Of a DNA stretch of 64,000 nt, positions 1,023-60,275 are shown one piece after another. The translations under genes and the position numbers were made by a program. The first letter of the stretch is position 1, and every line of letters begins with the position of its first letter. Below the pieces are notes generated by a model. That model did not search any database. It had not been told where the DNA came from and was given only the letters and a program-made list of their open reading frames with translations. The DNA comes from Isoetes taiwanensis (Eukaryota > Streptophyta > Lycopodiopsida > Isoetales > Isoetaceae): the NCBI GenBank assembly GCA_021234155.1, contig JAJEKV010000009.1, positions 8,190,546-8,254,545 on the forward strand, read 5' to 3'.

Positions 1023-2330
1023 TTGCCATATAATTCCTTGATCGAGGACGATCAATCCCGGGAAAGGGAGGAATTGATATGGTGGTGCTCGGGGAGCGGT
1101 TCAGGCTAATGCATCCAAAATTAATATTAGTTATTAGTTTGTCAAGGGTAGTCTAGATCCTAAACTATATTTTTAAATTATGATGTTTAGGCTATGATAA
1201 ATTCCTTAAAGCAATGAACCATTGAATATTTAGTTTAAATATAAGCATGGCTGATAACGGGTCGCGAACCCGTTAAGCTAAATCTCGGCCGAGAGCATAT
1301 CAGAGTAAGGAAAGGGTCCCGGATCATGGAAAATAGGATGATTTCATCCTGAAAAAGGTCCGGAACTAAGCCGAATCCCTGCTATTTGCCTTTTTAGAAG
1401 ATATTTTTGACTAGACAAACGTATTCCGAAAATAGATTGACCTGCGTCTATAAATTGCTTCGCTGGTCATGGTTTTAGAGTCTTCGGTTGAATGTTGGAG
1501 CTGAGTCCTTCTGTTTTGCCTGCGTCTTTACTGGATGAATCTGTTCTTTAAAGTTGAACACCTGGATGCTATTGGGAATGCGAGATAACGATTTCTTGCA
1601 GAGCCTTGACCCGGTTGGGTGGAGAGATTTGGGCTAAAGGCCTGGTTTTTGGAATGTTTAAAGATTTCATGTTTAAATTTCTGTTTTTCTCTGGCTAACC
1701 CATGATCTGTATCAGATCGACCCACTCAGGTCACCCCACGCCGAAGGGCCTTGCGTCGCGAACGCAGATGCGTTTTGCGCGCAGTAATTCGAGTCACCCA
1801 TTTTTGCATTTTTACATGTTAGATTGACATAAGATACGTTGCTAGATAGCTTAGAATTGAGTCAAACTTGCATTTTAGTATTTTATATCTTCCAAAAATA
1901 TTAAGTTTTAGTCAAAATCGACCCACTCGGATCACTCCATGAGGGCCTTGCGTCGCGAATACAGACGCGTTCCGCGCGGAGTAACCTGAGTCGAGCATAT
2001 TTGACCCAAATTTGTCCAAATTTTATCTAGTAAACTGTTTTATAGTGTTTCTTGACTTGTTTTGCTTAGATTTGCACTTCATTTTACACAGTTTGGACAT
2101 CTATAGCCTTAGAACACAGGTCTACCCGAACAAGAAGTCTTGGGCACGGAAACCTAGGCGGCCTTAGTCTATAAAGGGGGACCTCATTTGACATTTTTCC
2201 TTCACCAAATCTGCTCTCATCCACTCTAGGCGACTTCCCAGCTCCTTGTCAATCTTTCTCAACCATTTTCTACTCCAATCTTTGCTCAATGGCGCCCACA
2301 AACTTTGTTGAATGGTTGTTGGAGCCCCCG
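1023..2330. other. Non-coding stretch with an ~80-bp direct duplication
   Basis: A block beginning 'tcgacccactc', with 'gggccttgcgtcgcgaa' and 'gcgcg.agtaa', occurs at about 1715-1797 and again at 1916-1998. The start-to-start distance is about 200 bp. It is GC-rich with several CpG-rich words, unlike its surroundings. It may come from an old retroelement leader or LTR, but no termini are visible. Confidence 0.45.
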
Positions 2331-5300
2331 TGGCATGTTTGGCCACCTTGGCATGTTTGAGGCTAGGTGGGATTTTGGAGCCCACGGCATGTTTGTGCCA
2401 TCTTGGCATGTTTGAACCTAGGTGGCATGTTGGAGCCCACGGCATGTTTGAGCCACCTTGGCATGTTGGAGCCTAGGTGGCATGTTGGAGCCCATGTGGC
2501 ATGTTTGAGCCATGCACCTTGGCATGTTTGAGCAATCTTCGCATGTTTGACCCTAGGTAGCACGTTGAAGTCTAGGTGGCATGTTTGAGCCACCTTGGCA
2601 TGTTGGAGCCTAGGTTGCATGTTGGAGACTACGTGGCATATTTGAGCCTAAGGTCGCATGTTGGAAGCCCGCGTGGCATGTCTGAGCCACCTTGGCATGT
2701 TGGAGCTTATGTGGCAGATTAGAACCCGCGTGGCATGTTTGAGCTGCCTTGGCATGTTGGAGCCTAGATGGCATGTTGGGAGCCCCCTGTGGCATGTTTG
2801 AGCCACCTTGGCATGTTTGAGCTTAGGTGGCATGTTAGGGCCACCTTGGCATGTTGGAGCCTTGGTGGCATATTGGAAGCCCACGTGGCATGTTTGAGCC
2901 ACCTTGGCATGTTGGAGCCTAGGTGGCATGTTAGAGCCCGCGTGGCATGTTTGAGCCACCTTGGCATGTTTGAGAGTAGGTGGCATGTTGGTGCCTAGGT
3001 GGCATGCTTGCGCCACCTTGGCATGTTGGAGCCTAAGTGGCATGTTGGAGCCCACATGGCATGTTTGAGCCACCTTGGCATGTTGGAGCCTTGGTGGCAT
3101 GTAGGAGCCTGCGTGGCATGTTTAAGCCACCTTGGCATGTTTGAGCCTAGGTGGCATGTTTGAGGCACATTGGCAAGTTGGAGCCTAAGTGGTATGTTGG
3201 AGCCCATGTGGCATGTTTGAGCCACCATGGCATGTTGGAGCCTAGGTGGCATGTTTAAGAACCTTGGCATGTTGGAGCCTAGGTGGCATGTTTGAGCCAT
3301 CTTGGCATGTTAAAGCCACGTGGCATGTTTGAGATACCTTGGCATGTTGGAGCCGAGGTGGCATGTTGGAGCCCACATGGCATGTTTGAGCCACCTTGGC
3401 ATGTTAGAGCCTAGGTGGCATGTTGGAGCCCGCATGGCATGTTTGAGCCACCTCGACATGTTTGAGACTAGGTTGCATGTTGGAGCCTAGGTGGCATGTT
3501 GGAGCCCACGTGGCATGTTTGCGCTGCCTTGGCATGTTGGAGCCCACGTGGCATGTTAGAGCTGCGTGGCATGTTGGAGCCGCTAGGTCGCATGTTGGAG
3601 CCCGCATGGCATTTTGGAGCCTAGGTGGCATGTTTGAGCCACCTTGGCATCTTGGAGTCGAGGTGGCATGTTGGAGCCCACATGACATATTTGAGCCACC
3701 TTGGCATTTTTGAGCCTAGGTGGCATGTTAGAGCCACCTTGGCATGTTGGAGCCTAGGTGGCATGTTGGGAACCCACGTGGCATATTTGAGCCACCTTGG
3801 CATGTTGGAGCCTAGGTGGCATATTAGAGCCCGTACGTGGCATGTTTGAGCCACCTTGGCATGTTTGAGAGTAGGTGGCATGTTGGTGCCTAGGTGGCAT
3901 GCTTGAGCCACCTTGGCATGTTGGAGCCTAGGTGGCATGTTGGAGCCCACATGGCATGTTTGAGCCACCTTGTTATGTTGGAGCCTTGGTGGCATGTAGG
4001 AGCCTTGGTGGCATGTTTGAGCCACCTTGGCATGTGAGCCTATGTGGCATGTTGGAGCCTAGGTGGCATGTTTGAGGCACGTTGGGGAGTTGGAGCCTAG
4101 GTGGCATGTTGGAGTCCATGTGGCATGTTTGAGCCACCTTGGCATGTTGGAGCCTAGGTGGCATGTTGGAGCCTAGGTTGCATGTTGGAGCCCAGGTGGC
4201 ATGTTAGAGACCACGTGGCATGTTTGCGCTGCCTTGACATGTTGGAGCCCACGTGGCATGTTAAAGCCGCATGGCATGTTGGAGCCTAGGTGGCATGTTG
4301 GAGCCTGCATGGCATTTTGGAGCTTAGGTGGCATGTTTGAGCCACCTTGGCATCTTGGAGTCGAGGTGGCATGTTGGAGCCCACATGACATGTTTGAGCC
4401 ACCTTGGCATGTTTTAGCCTAGGTGGCATGTTAGAGCCACCTTGGCATGTTGGAGTCTAGGTGGCATGTTGGGAGCCCACGTGGCATGTTTGAGCCACCT
4501 TGGCATGTTGGAGCCTATGTGGCATGTTAGAGCCCGCGTGGCATGTTTGAACCACCTTGGCATGTTTGAGAGTAGGTGGCATGTTGGTGCCTAGGTGGCA
4601 TGCTTGAGCCACCTTGGCATGTTGGAGCCCAGGTGGCATGTTGGAGCCCACATAGCATGTTTGAGCCACCTTGGCATGTTTGAGCCTATGCGGCATGTTT
4701 GAGCCTAGGTGGCATGTTGGAGCCTAGGTGGCATGTTGGAGCCTAGGTGGCATGTTTAAGAACCTTGGCATGTTGGAGCCTAGGTGGCATGTTTGAGCCA
4801 TCTTGGCATGTTGAAGCCACGTGGCATGTTTGAGATACCTTGGCATGTTGGAGCTGAGGTGGCATGTTGGCCCATGTGGCATGTTTGAGCCACCTTGGCA
4901 TGTTAGGGTCTAGGTGGCATGTTCGAGCCCGCGTGGCATGTTTGAGCCACCTCGGCATGTTTGAGACTAGGTTGCATGTTAGAGCCTAGGTGGCATGTTG
5001 GAGACCACGTGGCATGTTTGCACTGCCTTGGCATGTTGAAGCCCACGTGGCATGTTAGAGCTGCGTGGCATGTTGGAGCCTAGGTGGCATGTTGGAGCCC
5101 GCGTGGCATTTTGGAGCCTAGGTGGCATGTTTGAGCCACCTTGGCATCTTGGAGTCGAGGTGGCATGTTGGAGCCCACATGACATATTTGAGCCACCGTG
5201 GCATGTTTGAGCCACCTTGTCATGATGGAGCCAAGGTGGCATGTTGGAGCCCGCATGACATGTTTGAGCCACCTTGGCATGTTTGAGACTAGGTCGCATG

Positions 5301-5875
5301 TTAGAGCCTAGATGGCATGTTGAAGTCCACGTGGCATGTTTGAGCCACCTTGGCATGTTGGAGCCTATCTGGCATGTTTGAACCATCTTGGCATGTTGAT
5401 GACATGTGTCATGTTTGAGCCACCTTGGCATGTTGGAGCCTATGTGGCACGTAGGAGCCCATATGGCATGTTTGAGCCACCTTGGCATGTTGGAGCATGT
5501 GTGGCATTTTGGAGCCTAGGTGGCATGTTTAAGCCACCTTGGCATGTTTGAGCCTAGGTGGCATGTTGGAGCCCACATGGCATGTTTGAGCCACCTTGGC
5601 ATGTTGGAGCCTAGGTGGCATGGCGGAGCCCACGTGTCATGTTTGCGCGACCTGACATATTGGAGCCTAGCTGGCATGTTGGAGCCTGTGTTGCATTTCA
5701 GAGCCTAGGTGGCATGTTTGAGCCACCTTGGCATGTTGGAGCCTAGGTGGCATGTTGGAGCCCGCATGGCAAGTTTGAGCTACCTTGGCATGTTTTAGAC
5801 TAGGTCGCATGTTGGAGCCTAGATGGCATGTTGGAGCCCACGTGGCATGTTTGAGCTACCTTTGCATGGTCGAGC
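2331..5875. repeat. 3.5-kb satellite array of 19-bp units (57-bp triplets)
   Basis: Nearly the whole stretch is built from 19-bp units of three main types: ggcatgttggagcctaggt, ggcatgttggagcccacgt and ggcatgtttgagccacctt. They tend to follow one another as a 57-bp triplet. Because 57 is divisible by three and stop codons are rare in the unit, long repetitive open frames appear on both strands (motifs such as KHATWAPTCHLGSN and SHLGMLEPRWHVG). I read these as by-products of the array. Units vary by point changes and small indels, with longer blocks duplicated (for example about 2880-3100 resembles 3770-3960). Confidence 0.93.
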
Positions 5876-7039: not shown

Positions 7040-8000
7040 CAACAGCTATACGACCCTCAGGGTGCACATGCGGCAAAGATTACCCTTGCAAGAAGGCCCG
7101 GTCTTTGGAAATCACAGATTCGGACGTGGAACAAGGCTTACAAAGATCTTGCCAATGGGAAAGCCCCGACTTGGATGGTATGCGGCAATTGCTTAAGTGG
7201 GCAGGGGCCGTCCATAATACCGTGCTGACCGCCTTGTTCAACAAGGCATTACAGGAAGGCTTCCCGCTGCAGTGGACCAATAGCAGAGTTGTTCCCATCT
7301 ATAAGGCAGGTGACCCACATTGCCCAGCCAATTACCGAACAATCATGGTCAGTTCGGTATTTGCAAAACTGCTTGTTGGGATTCTCGGCGGCGGTTGACG
7401 GGTCAAGCGTGGTAGCGAGAGGTGCGGGCCCTCACCCAGGCAGGATTCAGACCCCGGCACTCAACCATTGACCACATCTTCACGTTGCGAACTCTGATTG
7501 AAGACAGCAGGAACCGCCGTCAGGATCTATATTGTTGCTTTGTGGATTTTGCGAAGGCGTTTGACACTGTGCCTCGGGAAAAACTATGGACAAGACTGCA
7601 ACAGCTGGGGGTTCTTGTAGATTTGCATAATGCAGTGTACAAGCTATATGAAATATGCTCGGGTCGGTTGCAGCAGACAAACCAACCATTTTATAGTAGT
7701 ATCGGGGTTCGTCAGGGATGCCCTCTCTCCCCAACATTGTTTGGGCTTTACATTGATCAATTGGAGAGATGGCTTGCTGATAATGGGGGCGATGGAGCTC
7801 ACCTTCTCTATCAGATCATCAGACAGTTAATATATGCTGATGATGTGGACCTCCTAGCTTACACACCAGCAGACATGCAACGACATCTCGATGCCCTCGA
7901 CACATTCTGCCAAGCGACTGATATGCGCGTCAACCTGGCTAAGACTAAGGTGGTTTTCATATCATCTTCACGTCAGCCGAGGGTCCCCTCCTTCAGTTAA
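7040..8000 (+). pseudogene. LINE reverse transcriptase domain (broken)
   Basis: Reverse-transcriptase motifs occur in order: NYRTI near 7330, GFRPRHSTIDHIF (7440-7480), DFAKAFDTVPR (7545-7575), GVRQGCPLSPTLFGLYI (7708-7755) and the catalytic YADDVDLLA (about 7830-7857). The two Asp of YADD are intact in this copy. The domain is split over at least two frames, with a shift near 7400, so no single product is possible. Downstream 8022-8645 (VEPVLLYGVEVWGP) is the thumb/linker region. Confidence 0.9.
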
Positions 8001-12297: not shown

Positions 12298-12692
12298 CAA
12301 GGGGGCGTCACCTTGTGGAACCTGTCAAAACCACGTGCATCAACGGGAGGGGGGCCATTTTTTACCCTTTTTCGTATGTATACTAGGGGTCATAGGGGTT
12401 TTGGGATGTTCTTCTAGTTGTAAATCCTAGGGTATTAAAGAGTGGCTAAAATTCGCTAAATGGCAATTTTTTAGACCTTTAGTCAAATTTCATGGCTAAA
12501 GTTAATAAAGGTCATTTTCCAAAAAGAAAATAATTTGAATAGAAAAACATTAAGAGCCCTTAAAATTTACCCTGGTAAATCCATACGGAAAGGGGTCAAA
12601 TTTGCCTATAAAAAACACGTATACTAGGGGTTTTTCGGCTACCCTATGCACGCAGGTGGCATATCCCTTATAAAGAAGGTGGATCCCCCGGG
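12298..12692. mobile_element. hAT-like MITE, copy 1 (carries a nested MITE)
   Basis: It begins caagggggcgtcacc and ends ggtggatcccccggg, which form imperfect terminal inverted repeats. It is flanked by 8-bp duplications GTCAAGCA at 12290-12297 and 12693-12700. Without the nested insertion and its duplication the unit is 240 bp, matching copy 2 at 52917-53155. Eight-bp duplications and C-A-rich ends suggest the hAT superfamily. It codes for nothing and would need a transposase in trans. An internal phrase, cgtatgtatactagggg, is partly repeated as acgtatactaggggt. Confidence 0.88.
12428..12574. mobile_element. 147-bp MITE nested inside the first MITE
   Basis: The insert starts tagggtattaaag and ends aatttaccctg (short inverted ends AGGGTA/TTACCCT). 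It is flanked by 8-bp duplications GTAAATCC at 12420-12427 and 12575-12582. The undisturbed site is visible in the other MITE copy near 53037-53045 (gtaaaacc), which proves it is an insertion. This is also a hAT-type signature. Confidence 0.88.
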
Positions 12693-20708: not shown

Positions 20709-22396
20709 TCAGCCCGTTTTTGTAAATAGGGCTCTGCCCATAGCGGAAAATAGATGGGCTCTGCTCACATTTTGTAAAAATTTCACCTCTATAATATAAA
20801 TATGCCGCTTGTTAGTCACTATCTGTTGTGTCAACAGCATCTGGTGGATGATTGTCACTTTCTGTTGTATGAAATTGTTTGAAGCAAAAGCCGGAGTGCC
20901 ATCTAATTCAGCCAGCTTGAAAACGCTGGGTTGCACCACTTGAACAATTTGATAAGGACCAAGCCATCTGAACTTTAACTTGCCCGGAAAACTTTTGTAA
21001 CGAGAATCATAAAGAAGAACCAAATCGCCTTCTTTGGATGTTTTTGTCTTAAGTCATTTGTCATGCAATGATTTCTGCAACCGTTGTCCATGAAGAACAC
21101 AAATGTAAGCATCGCGCCGAAGTTCATCCAACTGTTCCAATTGATAAACCCTTTCCTTGAGTGCAGCAGATGGATTATGGGCTGTAGCAAGTTGAAAACG
21201 GAGAGTTGGAAGAATGTATTCAAAAGGCATGAGAGCTTCTTGACCATAAACCAGTTTGAAAGGAGTGTGACCAGTAGCTATTTTGAAACTAGTGTTGTAA
21301 GCCCAAAGAACAGTAGGCAACTTTTCCTGCCAATCTGTGCGTGAAGCGTCACAAATTTTCTTGAGAACGGTGATGAGTGTTTTGTTGGTACTTTCAGCCA
21401 AGCCATTTCCTTGAGGATAATAGGGTGTACTCTTCCGGTGTTGATGTGAAGATAATCCGTCAGCTCCTTAATGGTATGGTTGACAAAATGCACGCCACGA
21501 TCACTAACAAGTTCCGTGGGACAACCAAAACGCGTGATGATGTGCGTATAGAGAACCTTGGTTGTGCTGGCAGCAGTGTTGTCAGGAAGTGCACAAGCTT
21601 CTGCCCATTTGGTAGCATAATCCGTGATGACCAGAATATAGCGGGCACGGGTGTGCCGCGCCGGTGGGTCCACGGGCCCCACAAAATCCATACCCCATTT
21701 GCTGAAGGGATGTGGCGTGGCGACCGACGTCAATGGAAGAGCGTCACGGGCCGTGGGTTTTCCCACACGCTGACAGACGTCACACGTGCGAGCATAAGCA
21801 TGGGCATCTTTGAAGAGCGTGGGCCAGAAGTATCCTGCCAAAAGAATTTTGCGTGCCGTGGCGTCACCACTAAAATGACCATCACCAAGCCCATCGTGGG
21901 CTTGTCGAACAATATCGGGCATCTCGTGAGGGAGGACACAACGACGGAGGACCATGTCTTTGCCTCGTTTGTACAAATGGCCTGCAACCATGGTATATTC
22001 ACGAACCTCTCTGAGAAACTGACGGTGGCGGGAGCGAAGCTTTTCTAGAGAGAGCGTCGGATCGGCGGGAGGAAGAGCACCAGTGAGAAGATATTGTTGA
22101 AAGGTGTGAAACCAATGGGGCGTGGCCGTGACCAGGAACAATTGAGCATCTGGAAAGGCATCCGAAACACCCGTGGATGGATCATCCGTGTGGATGCGTG
22201 AAAGATAATCAGGCACCACATGAGATTTGCCTGCCTTATGAACAATTTCGAAGGGAGCGAATTCTTGCAGAAGAAGGACCCAACGAGCAATTCTACCCGT
22301 GGGCGTGGCTTTGTTGATCAAATAAAGAAGAGCTTGATGGTCAACAAAGAACTTAATCTGGCTACCCAACAAATAATGTCTGAAACGTTGGACCAC
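20709..22396 (-). pseudogene. RNase H and integrase of the Ty3/gypsy element
   Basis: The first part ends the RNase H domain (FFVDHQALLYLINK, then HKAGKSHVVPDYLSRI). The integrase follows, with an HHCC zinc finger (HDGLGDGHFSG ... CDVCQRVG), core motifs WGMDFVGPVD and TDYATKWAEA, and LVSDRGVHFVNH. The frame then shifts near 21430, and the rest (WAYNTSFKIATGHTPF) continues in the neighbouring frame. The C-terminal GPY/F-type module ([19 protein letters not shown]) is at about 20960-20900. The chain is broken by frameshifts near 21430 and 21050. No chromodomain is visible after the GPY module. Confidence 0.92.
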
Positions 22397-23502
22397 GCAC
22401 CCCCAAAGCTTTATGCTCCGTGGCGAGTAGTTGCGCCAAACAGATTGAGTTTCCTACCGCATAGCGGATTGGTTTATCCGTGATGTCATCATAGGCCCGA
22501 GAGAGAACAACAAAGAATGGCAAAAGCGAGACGCCAACATGAACATGGAAAGGCTTGTCCCATTGAGGAGGAACAAGGACCGGGGCTGAGTAAATGCCTT
22601 TAACTTCGGCGGCTTCCGCTTGGGAATTCCAAGCCCAAGTGGATTCATCACCCGTGAGTTTATGAATGGGGTCAGCTATAGCTGCAAGGCCAGGAATAAA
22701 GGTGGAATAGTAATTTACCTTACCCAGGAAAGAGCGCGTGTCTCTTTGATATTAGACGGTGCTTGAGCTTTCAATGACGGCCCGATTTTAGCGGGATCCG
22801 TGGTGATGCCTTCTTTACCGACCACATGACCCAACGTAACGCGCCGAGGTGACGCTTGAAAGGTGCACTTCTCGTGATTGAGACTAATGCCGATTCATCA
22901 CATTTTTGAAAAACAAGCTCCAATTTGTCTAAATGATCATCCATGGAGTTGTAGGCAGAAAAATCATCTTGGAAGATCTGAAGAAAAGGTTTTTCCTTCA
23001 TAAAGTCTTGAAAGACGCGAGAGAGCATGATCTTGTTGAAAAGGTTGAAGGAGAGTTTGACAAGCCAAAAGGGACCACCTTGTAGGCAAAAGTGCTTACC
23101 CTGGGTGGTGAAGGTAGTTTTGAGTTGATCTTCTTGCTTGATAGAAATTTGATTGTACCCCTAAAACCATCCATGAAAGAGTACATCTCGTGACCAAAGA
23201 ACTTCTTCAAGAACCCGGTGGAGAAGGGAAGCGGAAAGTGATCACGCTCCGTGGCTTTGATTGAGTTTTTCGTAATCCACGCAAAACGCCGATCTTACCA
23301 TTGTGTTTGAGAGCAATGACGATAGGGCTCACCCATTCGAAATGTTTGACCTCATAAATCAGGCCGCAAGCAAGAGTTTGTCAATTTCGGCCTTGACGCC
23401 GGTCCACGATAATTTGGGTTGAGCCCATGATCGTCGTTACTAGATTGGGCGTGCATCAGGTTTGGTAGGAATGGTGAGTTCCCCCAATTCTTTTTTGATA
23501 CC
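22397..23502 (-). pseudogene. Reverse transcriptase of the Ty3/gypsy element (heavily broken)
   Basis: Recognisable pieces in different frames include SFMDGFRG near 23170, FAYKVVPFGLSNSPSTF near 23090 (the usual MPFGLxNAPxTFQ region) and IFQDDFSAYNSMDDHLDKL near 22960 (the catalytic xxDD, here FQDD). Frames change at least four times in 1.1 kb, so this is the most damaged part of the pol gene. Confidence 0.85.
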
Positions 23503-46880: not shown

Positions 46881-49614
46881 ATGGAAAGATCTCGCCGGAT
46901 TACTATTTTGAATCTTTATGACGACATATTGGAGAAGATCTTTGAGAGGATTAAAAGGCCTACAGAAAGAAACGCCATTTCTGCTGTGTGCAAACGCTTC
47001 AATGAGATAGAAGCTAGGACCAGGCCTCATGTTTTAGTGTACAACATGTATGCTGTGCAACCCATTCAAGTGGCTAAGCGTTTCCCAAATGCCACATCCA
47101 TGACTATCAAGGGAAACCCTCGACTTGTCGACTTCAATATTCTTCCTAGAGATTGGGCTGGACATGCTGGGCCTTGGATTGATATTATAAAAGTCCACTA
47201 CAGGCACCTTAGTCGCCTGCGGTTGAAACGCATGAATATCACTGATTCTCAAATTGAGGACCTGTGTATGGGCTGTGGCACGAACTTGACAATCTTGATG
47301 CTTGACAAGTGCCAAGGCTTCAGCAGCGGTGGTCTTAAAAATATTGCCAAGTATTGCCGGTATGTTTTCTTTTCCATTTTCTCTTTTTGGATATATGATG
47401 CTCATTGTAGTTGCTGCTATGGGAATGTTATGTTATTGTGATTGTTGTTTGATAATAAGAGAATTTTAGTCTGGTTTTTATTTGGGTCATCTGGGGAATA
47501 GAAATGACATTGTTTTGTTGTTGCTCCTTCCTCAAAGTACTAGTTAATGTTACAAGTATGGTTATTTAATCCTCTTCTTTTAATTTATTGCAGAAATCTC
47601 ACCACGCTGAGCTTGGTGCAATCAACGTTTGATAAAGATCCCACCTGGCTGATCAACATGGCCGATGCTTGTCAAAGTCTCGAGTCATTGGATTTGTCTC
47701 TCATAGAATTATTAGATATTGATTATAAAGTACTTATCAAGCTTGCATCTCGCTGCAAAGTTCTTAAACTGTGGGAGGGTGTGCAACCTGATCACATGCC
47801 TGCCGTCATAAATAATTGCACATCTCAACTCTCTGAGCTTGGGATCGAGAGGTTATCTGGTGTATCACAAAACTTGATGGTTAAGTGCACTAGGTTGGAA
47901 GGTTTGGCCGGCATTTATGATTTAAGCGAGGGAGGAATGGAGGCCTTCTTGCCCATCGCGTTGCGAATTACGAAGCTTGATCTGTCTTATGCATCTCTAG
48001 CGGAGGCTGAGATAACTCAAGCGATAAGTGCATGCACCAATTTGCAGCAACTCAGGGTAAAGACTTTTAAAATGGCTCTGTATTTTTTTCAGATTAATGA
48101 TATGACTGATATCCCCAGTTTCAAGCTGGTAGAACTGAGCTTGTCTGATTCTCACACTATCAGGTGCTTGATGCGATTGGAGATGGGGGACTAAGAGCAT
48201 TAGGCAGGTCTTGCAGCAGCTTGCGTCGGCTTGTTGTTGAGAATGCATCAGCTGACGAAGGCGGAATTGTCACACACGTTGGACTCACAGCAGTTGCTCG
48301 AGGATGCAAGAACTTGCAAAAGCTTATTTTCTATGCCTCTGATATGACTAGTGAAGCTCTAGAAACACTTGCAGGAAATTGTGTACAGTTACTAGATGTC
48401 CGCATTTGCCTTGTATCTGTGGTTGCAGCAGGGAATATGGTAGTTGCTAACTGACACTTTGTGATAATTTGTTTTAGCTTATTGTTATTTTCTGACAGAG
48501 CATATGGATTTTTTAGAATTACCGAGAACGAAATTTGGACAAAGGAGTTGGGATACTTCTGAGGAACTGCCAATCTCTCCAGCGGTTGACGCTTACTCTG
48601 GATGTCGGACTAAACTACAGTTACCTTACTGATCATGGACTACGCCTCATTGGTAAATATGGCAAAAGACTACGGTTTCTTACACTTGCTAATTGTGGTA
48701 CTAGTGATGAAGGCCTCTATGCAATACTTAATGGATGTGTAAAGCTTCAGAGGTTGGAGCTTAGGAAATCCCCCTTTTCGGATGCAGGTTGGCATATTTT
48801 TTCTGTTTAGATCTGTCCATTTTGTAGGGTTTCTTTGCTGCAAGTTGTTGCTGTCATCTTCAAGCTTGTTTAATTCTCCCTCTTATGGGATTTAGAAAGG
48901 TCTCAAGGCTTCATAGGTCTCAACTGATGAGCATCATTTTTGGTCCTTCACCTTGTATTAGGTGCTAGTTCTGTTGCACAAATAGTTATATTTCAGAAAC
49001 TGATAACTGCTAAATTTGCAGGTCTAGCCGCAATTGCATTGAATCCAAACCTACACCTTAAGTATTTGTTCGTTCATGGTTGTCAATTGATGACCTTAGA
49101 TGGAGTCAGGATGTTAGCAAAACGAGCACGGGTAACAAATTCTCATTTCTATGTTGAGCTAATTGGGTGCCGGGAAGCTCGTTGTATAGAAGAACATCGA
49201 ATGAGCAGTCCTGATTCTTCCAGCCCAGAGAATAGGGCATGCACCAGCTGCCCCCATTGGCAGGTTTTGGCATATCATTCATTGGCAGAACCACGCAATG
49301 ACAGGCCTTGGTTTATAACACGAGTTGATAGTAATGCCGATCATGATTCACCTTCTAGTGGAAGTGGAAGAAGACGGCAGATGGAGTTTGACCTGAACCA
49401 GCCTCCAAATGGTGGCGATGATGAGGGTTCAAGTGACTTCAGTGAGATCACATCTGACTCTGCACCTTTGCACAACGAGACCCCGCGTCTGCCTAGTGAT
49501 ATAATATTCCCTACTCCCAGGATGCACATAGTTCCACCATTTATGTCTTATGCATCAATGAACTTTGCTTTGGGGTATGGTGGCCCGAACCTTCAAGACA
49601 GAATGCACATATAG
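46881..49614 (+). CDS. F-box/LRR protein of the TIR1/AFB-COI1 receptor superfamily, with EAR-motif tail
   Basis: Five coding exons with GT-AG introns: 46881-47359, 47594-48056, 48164-48439, 48517-48787 and 49022-49614, giving 693 residues. Residues 8-50 form the F-box (DDILEKIFERI...AISAVCKRF), which would join an SCF ubiquitin ligase through SKP1. The rest is a leucine-rich-repeat horseshoe. Marks shared with TIR1 and COI1 are YAVQP, RFPNATSM, KGNPRLVDFN, LKRM, LDKCQGFSS, LRVLDAIGDGGL, CGTSDEGL, LELRKSPFSD and the final VLAYHSLAEPRNDRPW. The first intron falls after the conserved 'YCR'. Nuclear hormone-receptor action is inferred from the family. Some features are COI1-like (Arg81, Tyr371, Arg394, the LAYHSLA end), others TIR1-like (NMYAVQP, DFN, LKRM). 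About 80 residues after the normal end form an unusual tail with SGSGRRRQ and DLNQPP. Fully open across all exons. Confidence 0.92.
49390..49407 (+). other. EAR-type repression motif DLNQPP in the F-box protein tail
   Basis: Residues 620-625 read DLNQPP inside MEFDLNQPPNGG, matching the DLNxxP form of the EAR motif that recruits TOPLESS co-repressors. It follows a basic GRRRQ and precedes an acidic, Ser-rich stretch. Such a motif is not part of the TIR1 or COI1 proteins I know. Confidence 0.7.
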
Positions 49615-51060: not shown

Positions 51061-51703
51061 GTTTAGGAACAAAAATGCATGCAAGTATCAGTGGTAAACT
51101 GAGAATACAAAATATAGTCCGTGCACTAAAGGTCCAAAAACAACTAGGAATGAAGAAGCATGCACTACCATGTCGGAATGACATCATGGAGGAGCAATAA
51201 CTATTGGTAGCACGGGAAAGAAGAGAAGACCCGAGACAAAGGCATGCTTTCCAACTTCTCTATTATAAGGTCCAGATTCCAATGAATGGCCCCTTGTTAG
51301 CATTCAATTTCCATTTCAAAGATTCCCTTTAAAAAAACACCATGCTCTAAAAATTGACCCTTTTTGGAAAAAGTTGAGAATTTCAAAAGGTTCGGATTGT
51401 TTTTCCCTGCATTCTGGGTCCTCATTACGGGACAACCTTGTTTTTGTAAAGAAAAGCACTTGAAAATGGCAAACTTTAGACATGAATATACAATCTCTGA
51501 AAGTAAGATATCAAAAACATCAAAATAGAGTAGAAAGAATAATAATTATTTCTTTAAGTTTTCTTAATACATCAATTTTGGCAATAATTTAGTGTTAACA
51601 ATAAATATTTTAGCGTAAGACAAGTCAAAGGTCCAAGTCATAGTATTCCATTTTTTTTTTCGTGTGTCTCAGCTTAGTCCTTCTCTATCGTCTGCCCCTT
51701 TTA
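51061..51703. other. No feature recognised
   Basis: AT-rich DNA between the inverted-repeat element and the end of the methyltransferase relic. Minus-strand 3'UTR sequence may lie here. Confidence 0.35.
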
Positions 51704-52264
51704 TGGTGATTTACCCTTGTCTGTTTCTACATTCTCTTCAGGAATAGTAGCTAGAGCTACTTCTTTCAGCTTTGCAAAGGTAGCTTCATCGTCTAGAGAG
51801 CTTGTAAATGGAGGCTGTATCTTTGAAGATGTCATCTTGGCATAATCAGATGAAGATTTGGCACCTAACTCTTGATTCTCGTCTGGTAGAGTAGGTAAGG
51901 CAGTCAATCTCATCTTGATAAAGTTCACAGCCTCCTTGTCTATGTCCATGGCTACACAATTGCAGCCCTTCTTAAGTGCACAATCGATTGTTGTACCAGA
52001 GCAATAAAAGCATCAAGCACCCAATCTCCTGGAAGTGAGAACATGTCAAGTAGATGGTTGATCAGCTTTGTGGTTTCTGGTAGTGATTAACTATCCTGCT
52101 TTGTGCACTAGGGTCCTGCAGCACCGCTGAAAACTCTAGGACATTGAAAACATTTTGGCAGGCTGCTGTGTTAAAATGTTCCATGGCTCGCTTTCCATCG
52201 AAACTCCAATAAGCAACATGGAGATATTCCACCTTGCTCAGCAACCTGGGTTCTCCACCATGGT

Positions 52265-52440
52265 AGTTTATAGGGAAAAACTACAAAATACCCTTATATT
52301 TTGACGAATTTCACGACATACCCCTGAGTTTTCATTAATTTTTGTAATGCCCTTGGTCAACGTATCTGGCCCTGTAGAATTTTGTATATCAGCAAATGCC
52401 CTTGTATTTTATGTATTTCATACAAAGCCCTTCTGAATGG
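52265..52440. repeat. AT-rich internally repeated segment
   Basis: Phrases 'caaaatacccttatatttt', 'cgacatacccctgag', 'gtaatgccctt', 'gcaaatgcccttgtatttt' and 'acaaagcccttctg' recur in direct order. It resembles the ends of Mutator-like MITEs and lies in what would be an intron of the methyltransferase relic. Confidence 0.45.
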
Positions 52441-52916
52441 ATGTGCTTTTTCGAATAACAGCAGCAACAAATAGTTCTTGTCATCGATTCTGTCATCAGC
52501 CACAATAATTCTCCCATCAGCGGTTTGCAAAGAGACTTTCAATGATTCCATCAACAATTTTCACAAAAATTTGCTAGCAGCAATTCTGCAAGTGATTTTT
52601 GGAGCAAGGATTTGACATCGGCAGTTTTCGTTTCTGAATAGAAAACAGTGCAGAGATTTAGATGTTCTAACCTGATGGAATTCCAGTGGAAAACCTAGTT
52701 CGACCTGACATGCTTAAATACGCTCTTCACTGCCATATAGATATGAATATCTCTGAATACATTGATCTTGCATTTTTTCAAGGGCATTTTCCAAAGCAAA
52801 ACTGAATGCGAATCCACCTCCTCCAAAATCCATATAGCAAGACTATCTAATATTCTGATCGGAGATCAACATGCAAGCAACTTCAATAACAGAATTGAAA
52901 CATGAAGGAAAGTAAG

Positions 52917-53155
52917 CAAGGGGGCGTCACCTTGTGGAACCTGTCAAAACCACGTGCATCAATGGGAGGGGGCGATTTTTTACCCTTTTCCGTATGTATA
53001 CTAGGGGTCATATGGGTTTTGGGATGTTCTTCTAGTTGTAAAACCATACGGAAATGGGTCAAATTTGCCTATCAGAAACACGTATACTAGGGGTGTTTCG
53101 GCTACCCTATGCACGCAGGTGGCATATCCCTTATAAAGAAGGTGGATCCCCCGGG
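52917..53155. mobile_element. hAT-like MITE, copy 2, inside the methyltransferase relic
   Basis: It has the same ends as copy 1 (caagggggcgtcacc ... ggtggatcccccggg) and is 239 bp long. Flanking duplications AAAGTAAG are at 52909-52916 and 53156-53163. This copy lacks the nested insertion and so shows the intact structure. Confidence 0.9.
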
Positions 53156-53858
53156 AAAGTAAGAAACAACTATATTCCAGAATAAGAACCTTACTAGACC
53201 ATGTTTTCATAACCTGATTGTACAAGGGATCTGAAGTGGTTCTTCCAGGTGGATTCTACAAGACCTGCTTGCATGCTCGAATGAAACACAAAAAGAAGCC
53301 AATGCTTGGCTATTGTAATGTCTTTAATGTTGTCGACGAATGCATTAAATTCAGAGTTTTTGAAGGGCTAGTCGTCGTAGCGGTTGTCCTTCAATTTGAA
53401 GCCATAAGGAATGTCTGCTATGACCAAAGTGAAATCCTTGGCTTTACTGCTCCGATCAATTTCGTGCAGTCCCCATAAATGATCGAAAACAAATTATTTT
53501 GATCAAACATGCTGAATTTCTTAAACTCGGACGTCTCCACGTCTAAGGTCCTTCTCTCGTCCAAAATCCTTTCCTCCGTGCTAATCTCACGAGATGCATG
53601 AAACTTTCGGGAAGGTTTTTATTTTTATTTTTGTTCTAAAAATAGAAGGAGAATTCGGTACATGGATAAAACAAGAGAAACGTATCAAGAGAACTTACCC
53701 AACCCTTGAAATTTGGAGCGTAATAATAATTCCTCATCAGAAGTTGCTACAGGGTAAAGTTATTTATACCTTTTCCAGGTCTGCACGTTCAATTGTTCCA
53801 TCGAACATGTTTGACATGCGGTGACGTCCTTTTGGCTGAGATAAACACCAAGAAGATA

Positions 53859-54130
53859 AGAAAATAGTAATCTTATTCTAGAGTATAAACTTAGCATTCA
53901 TGGAGAAACAAAAATAAAAGTTGAAAAGAAAAGTGTATTCCGGAATACACTTTTGCTATTCTTGAATAGCAAGTGTGTTTTCGAGTACGCTTTGCTTCTA
54001 AGAAAATAGTAATCTTATTCTAGAATACAAATGAGCATTAACGGAGAAACAAAAACAGAAGTTGAAAAGAAAAGTGTATTCTGGAATACACTTTTGTTAT
54101 TCTTGAACAAGTAGTATATTTCGGAATACA
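53859..54130. repeat. 142-bp tandem duplication carrying 26-bp palindromes, in an intron of the relic
   Basis: Two units start at 53859 and 54001 (agaaaatagtaatcttattc). Each contains a palindrome: a perfect 26-bp one at 53929-53954 centred on TTCC|GGAA, and one with a single central change at 54070-54095. It lies between the minus-strand donor near 54170 and the acceptor near 53845. Confidence 0.85.
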
Positions 54131-55980
54131 CATTTGCTTAACTCGAAAGCACACATGAGAGTGGTTGAAGGTAAGCTTACTTGTGCAACTCTTTCGACAT
54201 TTCTTCCAGGGTGAATTCCTTATCTACCACCTTTTGCAAGAGCCTTTCTAGTAAATCTATATTTATGAAGCCCTTCATTTCCCTTCAAACTGTAATAGTC
54301 ATTTCGTTTTTGGGGACGTCGAATCTTTCTTTTTTTTTCAGACATTTTGCCTTTGCTTTTTAATTCATCTCGCTCAACCATATTGAAAATCTCGATCTGC
54401 AGGTTCCATATCTGCACGTGTCAACATTTTTATTAGCAAGTTGCATTCTGGAATAGAATACTAAGCAGACCGTACCGACATTACACTAGTTGCCACAATA
54501 AGCTAAGGAAATGGAACACGACTACCTATTCCGGAATACAAGTATTACTTACCCGGCCCTCCCTGAAAGTTAACTGGAATCAATTATCATGGCCAATGAG
54601 TGGTGTTCTTTTGTTGGCATGTTTGAGGCAACACTCAATGGCACACGCTCTTTTAGCTCTAAAGAATATACAGGCTTTTTCAAGTCTTCTCCATATTTTT
54701 CCTTGATGATCATGTACTCTATGTGCATGAACCTAATTATGTCCACAAAGCTCATTTTTAATTTGTATTCGTTGTCAACATTGTGGGTGTTGGCAACGAT
54801 CTTCGCTTCCTCATCAGTAAGGCCACAGTAGAGTGCACAAAGAACAGACAAATACCTCGGGTTCCTTTTTTCTTTGTGTAGTTGTCTCCTGGCCTTGAAA
54901 CTGTGGTTCCCACCCAAAATGTAATGTGTGTATGTGCCTGCATTTTCTCTATCATAATCGGTGGGGTTTGAGCACTGCTCTCTGTCAACGAGAATGACAA
55001 TTGGAGCAACATGAACATTGGAGTTGCTTCAAATTCTATCCCTCAGGTTCCTCAGATGATCTGCATAAATCTTTCGAACGTGAAGTGGCCGCTCTCTAGC
55101 TTCATTCTTAGGAGGAAGCTTCATGGACGTAACATGCAAGTAGATAACACTCTGCACATACTTGTGCAGGTCTATTTCCTCCATCTTCTCTAATGTCTTG
55201 TCCACCTTTTTTCTTTAATGGCTATCCCAGGTGCCTTGCCCTTGCCCCCTTTTTTTTTGGGGGTATTTCTTCAGGAGCATCTACAACAGAAAGTTGCACA
55301 ACTTTTCTTTTCTTTTTTGGTTCTTTGGCAGCAATGGTCAATCTTTGTTTATTTGGAGGCAGTGCTTGCTGCTCTTCCGATTCTTTTGAACTTCTTTCAT
55401 CTTCTTCTTCGCCAGAGCGACCACTCAGGGGCCTTTATTCTTCCTCGTCTTCCTTCTTTGACTCATTAAACTCAAAGGCCTCACTTTGGGTACTTCGAAC
55501 CCAGCCTATGATGGCATTGAGCTTCCTTTGATTAATGTAGTGTGAAACATACTTGTAAAGGGCTTCAGGCTGCACTCTGACAAGTTTAAAATACGACTCA
55601 TCATCCAATTAAACCCTGGGAAGTCTTGAAGGACATTCTTCTCCATTGTCCAGACTGCCCTGCAATCTCACTAACATCTTGAATCATGTCCATACACACG
55701 AATTCAATCATATCTCTTCTAAACGGGCTCCTACAAACGTATAGAAATGTAAGAATGCTGTATTTTCCAGCCGTGCCCTTGTAAAGAACAACTGCATTTG
55801 AAAGTCTTCATATATCGTAGGCTCAGAAGACTCATCAACTCTTCGTTGTGGATGGGCCTTCTAAGTGATTTTTATCGTCCTCTTTGATTGCTTTTTGTTG
55901 ACGTCTTGCCTGTACAAATGTTGTGATTAATAGACACTATATTCTAAAATACATTTCTCCTAATCGCCCGTGGCAAATGT

Positions 55981-56066
55981 GTATTCTGGAATATACTTTC
56001 ACCTTTTCGAAAAGCAAAAGTGTAAACTTTTGCTTTTCGAAAAGGTGAAAGTGTATTCCGGAATAC
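55981..56066. repeat. 86-bp near-perfect hairpin
   Basis: 41-base arms 55981-56021 and 56026-56066 enclose a 4-base loop (gtaa) and differ at only two arm positions. Each arm contains caccttttcgaaaagcaaaa and ends in GTATTC(C/T)GGAATA. A third, diverged arm follows at 56082-56130. It lies just upstream of the minus-strand methyltransferase relic. Confidence 0.92.
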
Positions 56067-56170
56067 ATTTCTCCTAATCGCCACGGAATACACTTTCACC
56101 TTTTTGAAAAACAAAAGTGTATTCCAGAATATACTTTTGACACTCTCAAGTATTCCAGAATAGGTTTCGA

Positions 56171-56529
56171 TTAGTATGAAAGCTAAAAAGGACGTACATT
56201 ATACTTTTTACACTCTCCATGATCTTCTTTATGCAACATGGAATACAGCTTCGTAGAATAGTTTCGAAGGTGCTAGTGCTGGTGACTCAAGCTGTGTAAA
56301 CGGAATACAGAATGAGACACTAAAATCTTCTTTTAAAGGTTACACATTGTCCCTTCTCCAGTTCTATGTAAAGCAGAATATAACTTGTGTAATTAGCCTT
56401 TTACTGTGTGAGCTTTTAGTTTTCTTCTCCTCTTTTGTTTCCACACCCTTCTTTGTTTTGAATAGTATTGTATTCTCGAATAGCAAATGTACAACTGTCG
56501 AGTGAGTTGCTTACGTATCCCCTAATGTT
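56171..56529. other. Intergenic stretch between divergent gene remnants
   Basis: AT-rich DNA with further imperfect copies of the TATTC-GAATA palindrome (for example gtattctcgaata near 56470). No other feature. Confidence 0.4.
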
Positions 56530-57598
56530 TTGCAGTTGTTGAAGATTTTTAAATGCATTGTGAATAATCTTCTACCCCCTTTTGTTATCTCTAGTTCCTC
56601 TGAGTTGGATGGAGCTGCAGGACAAAACGCTGATGTTCAAGCTTCGATTCCAACTTCAACAACATCCCTTTCCCAGCTAGCAAATAACATGCCACCCCCC
56701 CTTCGAACCATCACCAAGCCCAATTGGAAATAGGTTGCCCCCTCCATTCATTCCATCACAAGTGTATGCAACATGCTTCCACCACCTTTTGTTACATCCC
56801 CCGGAACTACATAGGCTCCATCTCAACAGGTGCTTCGAAACATGCTATCCCCACTATTTGTAGTTTCTCTTGCTTCATGTAGAGGTACAAAGACTTTAGC
56901 ACGATTAGAAGAATGCGAGATTCTCCATAACTTCTCTCACCATGTCTTCGCTACAAATGAGGATGATGTTACATCACCTACTCCTCTTCACACAACTGTT
57001 GTGACACATGGGTTTGCAGAATTTCAATCCGCCATAAGAGAGATATTTACAAGAACTCCTCATTATGATGCTGCGACAACATCTGCTGCTACAACTTCTA
57101 ATGGACCATCGCCAACATTTAACACTGGTACAACTTCATGTGGACTTTTTTCCTCTTCAAACACACCATTGAAGGCAGAGGAGGTCACTCCTAGAGTAGA
57201 ACTATCATCAGAAGATCAAAACACCAATGAGAAGCAACGAGATTATATGTTCTCCAGCCAAAGTTCCAAGAAATTCAAAGTAGATTTTAGCTTGAGAGCA
57301 TGTTCTTTTATAAGGAGAAGAAATCTTATGGAGGAATAGAAAATGAGAAGAATTCTCAAAACTACATGTTGCTTTGGACTGCATTAACAGATTCAACATG
57401 GCTAAGCTTCGTGCACTTAAAGATAAGTACAGTTCTAAGACAGAGGTCAAAAGAAGTAAAAGTTAAAGTTCTTCATTCTCACACTTACTTCATAGAATGT
57501 TTTTCACCTGATTATTGTGCAATGGAACCTTGCTAGACACCGTGAACAACAAGCAGCCGAGAGAAGAAAGCTTGCTAAGCATAGGAAAAAATATTGAA
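56530..57598 (+). CDS. Unrecognised gene fragment, plus strand, probably several exons
   Basis: The frame 56830-57339 (169 codons) is Thr/Ser-rich (TTSAATTSNGPSPTFNTGTT), followed by EDQNTNEKQRDYMFSSQSS. Farther on, short stretches in shifting frames read MAKLRALKDKYSSKTEVKRS and NLARHREQQAAERRKLAKHR before a TGA at 57596-57598, a basic helical end. Composition suggests a decayed or intron-split gene. I recognise no domain. It is arranged head-to-head with the ParB-methyltransferase relic. Confidence 0.35.
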
Positions 57599-57819
57599 CG
57601 TCCATTCCAGCATATGTCTGTTGCAATTGAGGGAATGGATCAAAAAAAGACAATCCTAAGATGTGCCAAAAGAATGCTTTATTAAGGTCCAACTTGTAGG
57701 AGCAATGATCTTCAAAGGAAGTCTAAAGTGCAAAGTCTTTTTGACATATTCTAACTTACATGGTGACCCAAACCTCACAATTACAATTCTTAACAAGGTG
57801 TTGTGTGAGTAAGAGCAGT

Positions 57820-60275
57820 TACCACTAGTGCTTTACCTCCAACTAGACAAATGTACCAGGGAGAATAAGAATCAAACACTCTTCGCTTATTGTACCATTC
57901 TAGTGGAGCTAGAGATCTTCAAAAAAGTAGAGCTTGGATTAAAAGTATGTGATTCACAAGTAGATAGATTTGGGAGATGGTCTATAATTTTATGGCAACA
58001 GGAAGGTAGACTGTGGGGCTTGGTGAATGTTTATGTCCATAACAAACCTAGAGGCAGAGGCGCCCTATGGGCCACTCTTAGGCACAAATTAAAAGGTTTC
58101 GGGAACCAGGTGGATTATGGTAGGAGATTTAAAAAGGTGGAGGCAGTTGTGGATGGACAAGGAGTATTATCTGAAACCGTGCATGGGTTTGAGAAAGTCC
58201 AATGGTGTAAAATGTTAGAAGATATAGGCTTGATGGTAGTAGATGGAGATAAGGAGTATATATGGTGTAACAGATGGGTAGGTACGGGAAGGACTTATGC
58301 AAGACATGACAGATGCTACATCAACGATGAGGCACTCTCCATCCTTCCAAACCTCCATAGATCCAATCTTCTAAAAAATGCTATCTCGGATCACAATCCA
58401 CAGGTGATATCTACTCACATTTGCTAGAAACTTTTAAAACAAGATTCAAACTCAATACCAGATACCTGAATGATCCAGAATTTGTAGAGGCTTGCAAAAA
58501 CATATGGCAAGCGGCTTTTAGAATGGGTTCAGAAATGGAAACCATGATAACGGCCCTGGGCAATATAAAAAATTATGCCAAAAGTTAGGGTAGAGCTAAA
58601 GTGCAAAGGGAGAGGGGAGAGATAGATAGCCTTTATAGTCAGCTCCACTCACTTAGAGCATTGGACCCAAATGATGGAATAGAGGAGAAGGGAATAATAG
58701 AACAAATAAATGCATTAGAGGAAGTCAAGATAATTGAGAACAGGTGCAAAGCAGGATTAACCTGGCTAAAGGAAGTCGACAAATGCATCAAGTCCTTCTT
58801 CAAGTCAGCTAAAGAAAAGAAGAGGTCGTCTACACTATCAACCATCTCATTAGAGGCTGATTCGACTCTCAAATCTCCAAGGGATCTAAAAAGGTACTTA
58901 TATAACCATTTCCATGCTTTCTTTGGGGAACATAAGTTACTATTCCAAGATACATACGAAGAGCTAGTGATCTCAAAAGTCTCGCGCATAATGAGCTCTA
59001 GCCAAAAAGATATTCTAAGCTGCTTTTCACTATTGAGGATCTTAAAAAAGCCACCCTCTTATTGGCTAAAAATAAATGTCCGGGTATGGATGGAATTCCC
59101 ATAGAATTCTACCAATGCAATTGGGAATGGATTAAAGAGGATATTTTCTCTACATATATAGATTTCTTGCAAGCTGATAATTTAAATCCAAGATTGAACA
59201 CAGGTTGCATCGCCTTGATACCCAAGTGAAAGGAGCCAAGTACAATTAATGACTGAAGGCCTATCACACTGCTATCTGCATTTTACAAAATCATGGCCAA
59301 GGCTATGGCAGAGAAGATCAAACCAATTTTAGCAGAAGGTATCTCATAGGCCCAATCTGGCTTCCTTCCGGGTAGGAGCATTCTGAGCGATGTGGCAGCA
59401 GCTTTCGAAGGGTTGCACTGGGCAAGAAAAATATGTAAAAAAGTAGCCTATCTAAAGCTAGATTTCACCAAGGCATATGACTGCATTAGATGGAGTTTTT
59501 TGCATAGAATGGTGCTTAAGCTGGGTCATGGAAGTTTTTTTACAGAAGGGATAATGAAACGAGATCTCTTGAGTCTCAGTCTTATTTCAAGGAGAACCAT
59601 CACCAATATTTGACATTAAGAGGGCATCAGGCAAGGTTGTCCCTTGGCCCCTTCCTCTTCAATATAGCAGCAGAAGCTCTCTCATAGAGTTTCTTGCAAG
59701 CCTTTGCAGACGACCTCATTCAAGGACTAGAAATGTGGGACGATTCTCAACAAATCTATAACTAGTATGCAGACGACTCATTTCTGTTTATAGAGGCAGT
59801 GGAAAATAACTTGTCATGTGCAGGCCAATTACTGGCCTCCTTCTCAATAGCTTCAGGTCGCCTTATAAATTGGAAAAAATGCTCAGTGCAGTGGCCTTTG
59901 GAGAATAGGTATCCTACATGTTTGGAAAGTTTACCATGGAAAATTATCCTTGAGTGTGAACACTCTAGCTTGTTAGGAATCCCAGTGGGCATGAACATCA
60001 CCAATGCACAAATATGGGACAAGATGCTAGGCCTTCATAAACACTTAAATTGGTGGAAGGTAGCAAAGCTATCTCTTGTAGGGAGGATTACTGTGGCAAA
60101 ACATGTATACATGTCATCAATTCTACTTGCTCCTAGGGAGAAGGTGCAAGAATTAGAAGGGTTGATTCGCAACTTTGTCTGGGGAGGAAACGAAGAAGGT
60201 ACAACGGTCAAAATTGCTTGGTGGAAGTGCAAGAGGGACAAAACAGAAGGGGAATTGGTATGTTTAACATAGTAC
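57820..60275 (+). mobile_element. L1-like LINE, broken
   Basis: Successive pieces are present. An endonuclease C-terminal part comes first (GRTYARHDRCYINDEAL, then NAISDHNP near 58385, the SDH-type motif with one change). The RT N-terminal linker follows (58601-59100), with its palm from LDFTKAYDCIRWSFLHRMVL (59460-59515). YADDSFLFIEA (59767-59800, preceded by a stop) and a post-palm region (SIASGRLINWKKCSVQWPL ... GIPVG, KLSLVGRITVAKHVYMS, FVWGG) come last. The motif set is that of plant L1 elements and differs from the LINE at 6-9 kb. Frameshifts and stops are frequent; the 3' end near 60275 joins a gypsy relic without a clear tail. Confidence 0.88.

Follow-up and report, generated by a model that had tools for sequence, protein, structure and literature searches.

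Transposons and transposon-borne epigenetic factors are already known. In Arabidopsis, the VANC proteins encoded by VANDAL transposons are described as binding a short motif arrayed in the elements' own noncoding DNA, including introns, and as causing DNA methylation to be lost (PMC5735166). TET/JBP dioxygenases have likewise been described on DNA transposons of fungi (PMC12730594), indicating that transposons recruit DNA-modifying enzymes. For plants, N6-methyladenine (6mA) has been questioned by reports (PMC12695648), and both functional 6mA in land plants and its writer are disputed. Here we examine 64,000 nucleotides of the genome of the lycophyte Isoetes taiwanensis (assembly GCA_021234155.1, contig JAJEKV010000009.1, positions 8,190,546 to 8,254,545 of the forward strand; this whole stretch is hereafter the window), in which an earlier reading of the sequence (the original prediction) had seen the relic of a single host gene joining a ParB-like domain to a beta-class N6/N4 DNA methyltransferase. 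Instead, the locus is a single dead copy of a DNA transposon that is about 8.2 kb long and present many times in the genome. What appears to be new is a plant DNA transposon that combines a bacterial-type ParB-like amino-methyltransferase with phased palindrome arrays.

A multicopy DNA transposon and its dead copy

The original prediction had proposed searching the same genome for further copies, and such a search with the methyltransferase query (E up to 0.001; 1,658,258,908 bases in 1110 contigs; 126 of 4198 first-look candidates scored) returned at least 203 exon-level matches. Matching proceeded exon by exon, such that one copy may yield two matches and counts for large families are lower bounds. 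At seven of the eight best-scoring places the matched part holds no stop, a figure that describes the match region alone; of the envisaged intact paralogue, what the genome shows is less broken copies.

Twenty of the better copies were fetched with 10 kb around each, and left sides were added for nine. In 19 of the 20, homology stops sharply about 430 bp past the methyltransferase match (L177 stops earlier), and a hairpin, CGGGAGTG..CACTCCCG, was found by pattern just inside this 3' border in 17. Left borders differ, with L166, L168, L169, L170, L173 and L174 being shortened. Inverted terminal repeats of about 24 bp were identified at both ends in eight of the nine copies with a left side (the left end of L171 was not found), the left end reading AACAA[AG][AG]TTGCGTATTAAACGGGAG, with one-base variants in L162 and L176, and the right end being its inverted partner CTCCCGTTTAATTTGCAA[TC]C.TGTT, with a one-base variant in L162. 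These eight complete elements span 8090-8436 bp and are all flanked by perfect 4-bp target duplications (AAAC, CATT, TAAG, TTCT, ATCA, GGTT, CCAC and TCTA). The highest pairwise identity is 94.4% (L160/L161), and the next seven of the 28 pairs lie at 82.5-87.3%.

Terminal repeats together with target duplications correspond to a cut-and-paste-type anatomy, rather than to that of a host gene, a long interspersed nuclear element (LINE) or a Helitron. Helitrons possess neither inverted terminal repeats nor target duplications; a Helitron was considered on account of the 3' hairpin and ruled out by the presence of both. Many-fold duplication of a bacterially derived host gene would explain the splice sites and a nuclear-signal-like stretch, but is contradicted by dispersed copies that share their terminal repeats and have both target duplications and a second gene carried along, and we leave it next to no probability. 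Separately, in the gene orientation of L161, an open frame at 7497-7799 that by eye looks like the reverse transcriptase of a retrotransposon spans the element's right end and extends into the flank.

The element comprises two divergent genes, a leftward DUF7869 gene in its left half and a rightward ParB-like methyltransferase gene in its right half. Measured against L158, the window copy has lost about 38 bp from its low end, the terminal repeat included, and about 1.6 kb from its high end; no close match to the element's terminal repeats was detected within the 64-kb window, both ends of the element being gone. Its features are as follows.

51311..57940, minus strand: decayed transposon copy, from blastn of complete elements against the window (L158, L162 and L172 rows)
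51704..52272, minus strand: last exon, with motif X, motif I and the C-terminal tail; two frame breaks
52273..53193, minus strand: intron grown by insertions, with a palindrome at 53173
53194..53635, minus strand: exon of approximate extent that encodes IYGDC and ADIPYGF (motif IV, catalytic) and is interrupted by a single in-frame stop and a single frame break
53770..53835, minus strand: short exon PKGRHRMSNMFDGTIERADLEK, matched in L166, L171, L172 and L176
53836..54180, minus strand: intron holding most of the intronic palindromes (53874-54128) and a 141-bp tandem duplication
54181..54411, minus strand: exon with a broken frame, linking the ParB-like region to the methyltransferase region
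54412..54552, minus strand: intron whose palindromes, at 54527 and, with one mismatch, at 54444, lie close to its two ends; the same donor and acceptor are seen in further copies
54553..55909, minus strand: long exon with the N-terminal region, PKKKRKV and the ParB-like region
55940..56482, unstranded: palindrome cluster upstream of the methyltransferase gene, between the divergent genes
53173..56482, unstranded: span of all 11 exact TATTC-NN-GAATA sites in the window
56526..57940, plus strand: what is left of the DUF7869 gene region, that gene being a candidate transposase gene

The stops and frameshifts reported for this copy are present; the last-exon frame is open in L158 (6471-7193). LINE-like sequence, recognized by eye and giving no Pfam match at 0.001, starts at 57940. 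Splice sites were read from genomic copies, eight elements being examined: the end of the ParB exon was located in five elements, four of which have GTAAGT as the donor that follows it and one, L162, GTACGT; the acceptor before the next exon is CAG or TAG in five of five. This conservation across genomic copies supports the predicted introns, in agreement with the spliceosomal introns originally claimed. Within the large intron, an insert at 52917-53155 is about 95% identical to two blocks at 12298-12692. Between the two genes, 55920-56180 has a predicted RNA fold of -100.7 kcal/mol (z -11.9 against shuffles), possibly a source of double-stranded RNA.

The encoded proteins

Translation of the window located the quoted peptides on the minus strand at 51704-55914, with motif IV (ADIPYGF) followed by X (NHYQKPQK) and I (GDWVLDAF..SGTT), the order that had been read originally. 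The methyltransferase half of the window copy, translated in pieces, matched Pfam N6_N4_Mtase (PF01555; E 2.6e-11), phrog_67 of PHROGs (2.3e-15, over residues 5-219 of 227) and the CcrM structure 6pbd (2.8e-6), while N6_N4_Mtase was matched at E 6e-18 in genomic copy L158. Given that motif IV precedes X and I, and that the PF01555 profile is matched, we assign this half to the beta-class N6/N4 DNA amino-methyltransferases, as previously proposed, with a predicted activity. Motif IV reads D-L-P-Y in 15 of the 20 fetched copies and D-I-P-Y in the window copy; the other five gave no match to a pattern that demanded D and P and that variants of other kinds would escape. Under the class rule, D in the first position of motif IV denotes the adenine type (PMC8885841). 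Analogy with DPPY therefore suggests adenine-N6 as the predicted target rather than cytosine-N4, two alternatives between which the original prediction had not chosen.

Neither the 764-amino-acid read-through nor a 459-amino-acid joint query found a match in a protein database of 5.8 billion sequences. The methyltransferase part searched by tblastn (E up to 1) matched 422 phage and 162 plasmid records, with identities of 20.6-26.6% among the matches listed (20 phage, 8 plasmid). Viral and prokaryote contigs scanned with single proteins, seeded from a few exact-peptide patterns, yielded no relative and hence no sign of recent bacterial transfer. The claim of a nuclear, intron-bearing gene as opposed to recent contamination is supported. 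An alignment-based viral scan with the methyltransferase part identified at least 53 loci, 47 of which were measured. Among eight of these viral loci scanned for domains, six are not ParB_N-methyltransferase fusions and two, L023 and L025, are; these two are about 21-22% identical to the methyltransferase part, over residues 4-208 or 4-206. That such methyltransferases are present in viruses, and that giant-virus insertions have been reported in moss (PMC12344493), could be taken to indicate that a large DNA virus once integrated and left these remnants. The element is short, however, has inverted repeats and 4-bp duplications, and shows only weak viral matches, and no viral gene was detected among six L158 open frames scanned with Pfam, leaving a viral origin very improbable.

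The ParB-like region of the window copy lies at 54573-55214 on the minus strand, with peptides LGGNHSFKARRQL and GLTDEEAKIVANTHN and one TGA. We compared it with a set of 11 diverse phage ParB sequences (set A3), whose own matches among structures include Spo0J, ParB and sulfiredoxin. The window piece scored 30.8 (E 1.9e-4) against a best shuffle of 27.8 (0 of 200 as high), and nine unmended genomic copies scored 39.1 over 88 columns (E 6.7e-6) against a best column permutation of 21.4 (0 of 150 as high). The ParB-like reading is further favoured because L023 and L025, found by the methyltransferase part, are ParB_N fusions. DUF6551 was matched at E 0.0078-0.12, below the family cut-off, the lowest value being that of L158 and a value of 0.0099 requiring removal of a loop from the query; profiles of full-length fusions gave E of 0.02-0.04, without controls. 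On the other side, the region has no ParB match in Pfam, NCBIfam, PADLOC or PHROGs. A second comparison set, made up of 42 of 80 loci that represent a single ParB-methyltransferase family, a few of them truncated, scored 20.7 with the window piece (1 of 150 shuffles higher) and 20.9 with the nine copies (4 of 150 permutations higher). A single-sequence fold of the ParB-like piece was uninformative (predicted local distance difference test, pLDDT, 39; no structural match). Furthermore, the ParB region alone found nothing in the protein database, and tblastn of the ParB part returned no phage record and two plasmid records, both spurious. Domain searches likewise gave no match to a known domain for the N-terminal region upstream. 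Of the proposed fusion, the joining of a ParB-like region to a methyltransferase is retained; no curated family recognises the ParB-like half, and the one-family controls were not beaten. Of the suggested fold and profile checks, the profile searches yielded the N6/N4-methyltransferase match. With support that is moderate and mixed, we regard the region as probably ParB-like.

The second gene of L158 contains an open frame matching DUF7869 in Pfam at E 1.9e-51, preceded by a 517-amino-acid open frame with no family above cut-off. Comparison of the DUF7869 protein with solved structures gave no meaningful match, no named transposase family was detected in the six L158 open frames at Pfam E up to 0.5, and no paper on DUF7869 was found in the open-licence literature. 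The DUF7869 protein is probably the transposase, a candidacy based on inference, and the element possibly represents a new superfamily.

Palindrome arrays and a putative self-mark

All 11 exact TATTC-NN-GAATA sites in the window lie between 53173 and 56482, within the transposon copy, compared with a mean of 0.007 sites in Markov versions of the locus (maximum 1 in 1000 versions); every other 5+2+5 arm in the window occurs at most twice. Allowing one mismatch, this interval holds 15 sites, none of which falls in a model exon. Across the eight complete elements we identified 108 exact sites, at 8 to 19 per element, as opposed to none in 33.8 kb of flanks. Exact, one-mismatch and two-mismatch sites number 108, 15 and 30, versus 0.2, 1.8 and 30.6 by chance; with exact sites far outnumbering one-mismatch sites, and two-mismatch sites at the chance level, the core is nearly invariant. 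Only four of the 108 sites overlap coding matches, although coding matches make up 59% of element length. The commonest of 100 neighbour spacings is 42 bp, or four helical turns (28 at 42 bp, 5 at 41 and 3 at 43; 36 within 41-43). Around the core TATTCCGGAATA, a frequent extended unit takes the form AAAGTG-TATTCCGGAATA-CACTTT with a diverged spacer. Core centres are CG in 44, TG in 29 and CA in 22 of the 108 sites, which would fit a methylated CpG that deaminates.

These arrays could be by-products, hairpin-prone repeats that multiplied through local duplication and inversion and to which no protein binds. Consistent with this are the 42-bp units, the 141-bp tandem duplication, the inverted copies and the self-pairing of inner spacer positions (162 of 266 in 38 units, against a control mean of 121, with 0 of 2000 controls as high), a statistic that ignores kinship among units; outer spacer positions pair no better than controls (194 of 228 versus 192). 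Such an origin nevertheless sits poorly with the scarcity of one-mismatch cores relative to exact ones, with the avoidance of coding parts and with six window sites, spread over three introns and the upstream region, that share the core alone, and we consider it quite unlikely. As a separate observation, inner spacers in L160, L165 and others pair as though hairpin shape outlives sequence change. On present sequence evidence, the palindromes are probably recognition sites belonging to the element itself.

Since the element encodes an amino-methyltransferase in a VANC-like layout, the simplest model is one of self-marking, and we think it rather likely, judging from sequence, that a transposon with a DUF7869 gene and a ParB-like adenine-type methyltransferase marks its own DNA at the palindromes. 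The ParB-like methyltransferase would gather on the arrays and, once gathered, would methylate adenines inside or beside them. This adenine methylation may label the element as self, and the mark might then protect its promoter and introns against silencing by the host's cytosine methylation, or license transposition. A fuller version, in which a new cut-and-paste superfamily (DUF7869 transposase, 4-bp duplications) places a ParB-like-guided 6mA self-mark on helically phased intron and promoter palindromes, thereby evading silencing or timing transposition, is put forward more tentatively.

Several points weigh against the self-marking model in addition to the mixed ParB evidence. The element, its genes and its palindromes are known from genomic DNA alone, and the eight complete elements measured were picked from the better-scoring matches. 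The 42-bp arrays could partly reflect tandem duplication homogenised by conversion. Moreover, nothing singles out the ParB-like methyltransferase, over the DUF7869 protein or some host factor, as the partner of the palindrome. In the same transposon, the palindromes might thus be bound by the DUF7869 protein or by host transcription factors, with the methyltransferase acting genome-wide or on the element ends. Many palindromes do lie between the divergent genes, where a shared promoter is expected, and their GAATA half-sites resemble host transcription-factor sites. Because many other sites fall inside the methyltransferase gene's own introns, as described for VANC-type motifs (PMC5735166), we hold this alternative to be rather doubtful.

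Genomic setting and comparison with known systems

The surroundings of the transposon copy identify the window as plant DNA, given a nearby F-box gene, retrotransposon integrase and reverse transcriptase. A TIR1/AFB/COI1-type F-box gene occupies 46884-49611, its first frame containing Transp_inhibit (PF18791; 5.2e-14) and F-box domains and its two later frames giving no Pfam match at 0.001. Retrotransposon Integrase, H2C2 and RNase H domains were found at 21281-22453 (minus strand) and a reverse transcriptase domain (3.1e-27) at 7416-7997 (plus strand). A tandem array of about 186 copies fills 2317-5856, its partly palindromic 19-bp unit being TGTTGGAGCCAACGTGGCA.

Among the open-licence papers listed, searched mostly as titles and abstracts, none was found to describe such an element. 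A transposon methyltransferase with defined candidate sites offers a concrete, testable writer-target pair in a lycophyte whose genome has been sequenced. If true, the self-marking model would supply a DNA-writing counterpart to VANC and to TET-carrying transposons. The element also points to a role for DUF7869 proteins, and it warns that annotation could mistake elements of this kind for host methyltransferase genes.

Among described systems, VANDAL/VANC shares with this element an element-encoded protein and motif arrays in noncoding and intronic DNA, and the tandem-repeat arrays vary between copies in both (PMC5735166). The likeness is one of layout, 104 of the 108 sites here lying outside coding matches. 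Unlike the palindromes described above, the VANC21 motif YAGTATTAY is not palindromic, and the available text on VANC mentions no methyltransferase, whereas the present element encodes one of bacterial type (PMC5735166). Transposons with TET/JBP are also DNA transposons carrying a base-modifying enzyme; that enzyme acts on methylcytosine, in contrast to the bacterial-type amino-methyltransferase of this element (PMC12730594). The bdelloid N4CMT (PMC8885841) and Marchantia MpDN4MT1 (PMC8566409) are bacterial-type amino-methyltransferases fixed in eukaryotes, but these sources describe both as host genes, N4CMT with SPPY, while the gene reported here is transposon-borne with D-L-P-Y. Phage and bacterial fusions of ParB_N and N6_N4_Mtase have the same domain order, from ParB to beta-class methyltransferase, from which the plant protein differs in its long N-terminal extension, introns, D-L-P-Y motif and ParB-core loop, the similarity between them being distant only.

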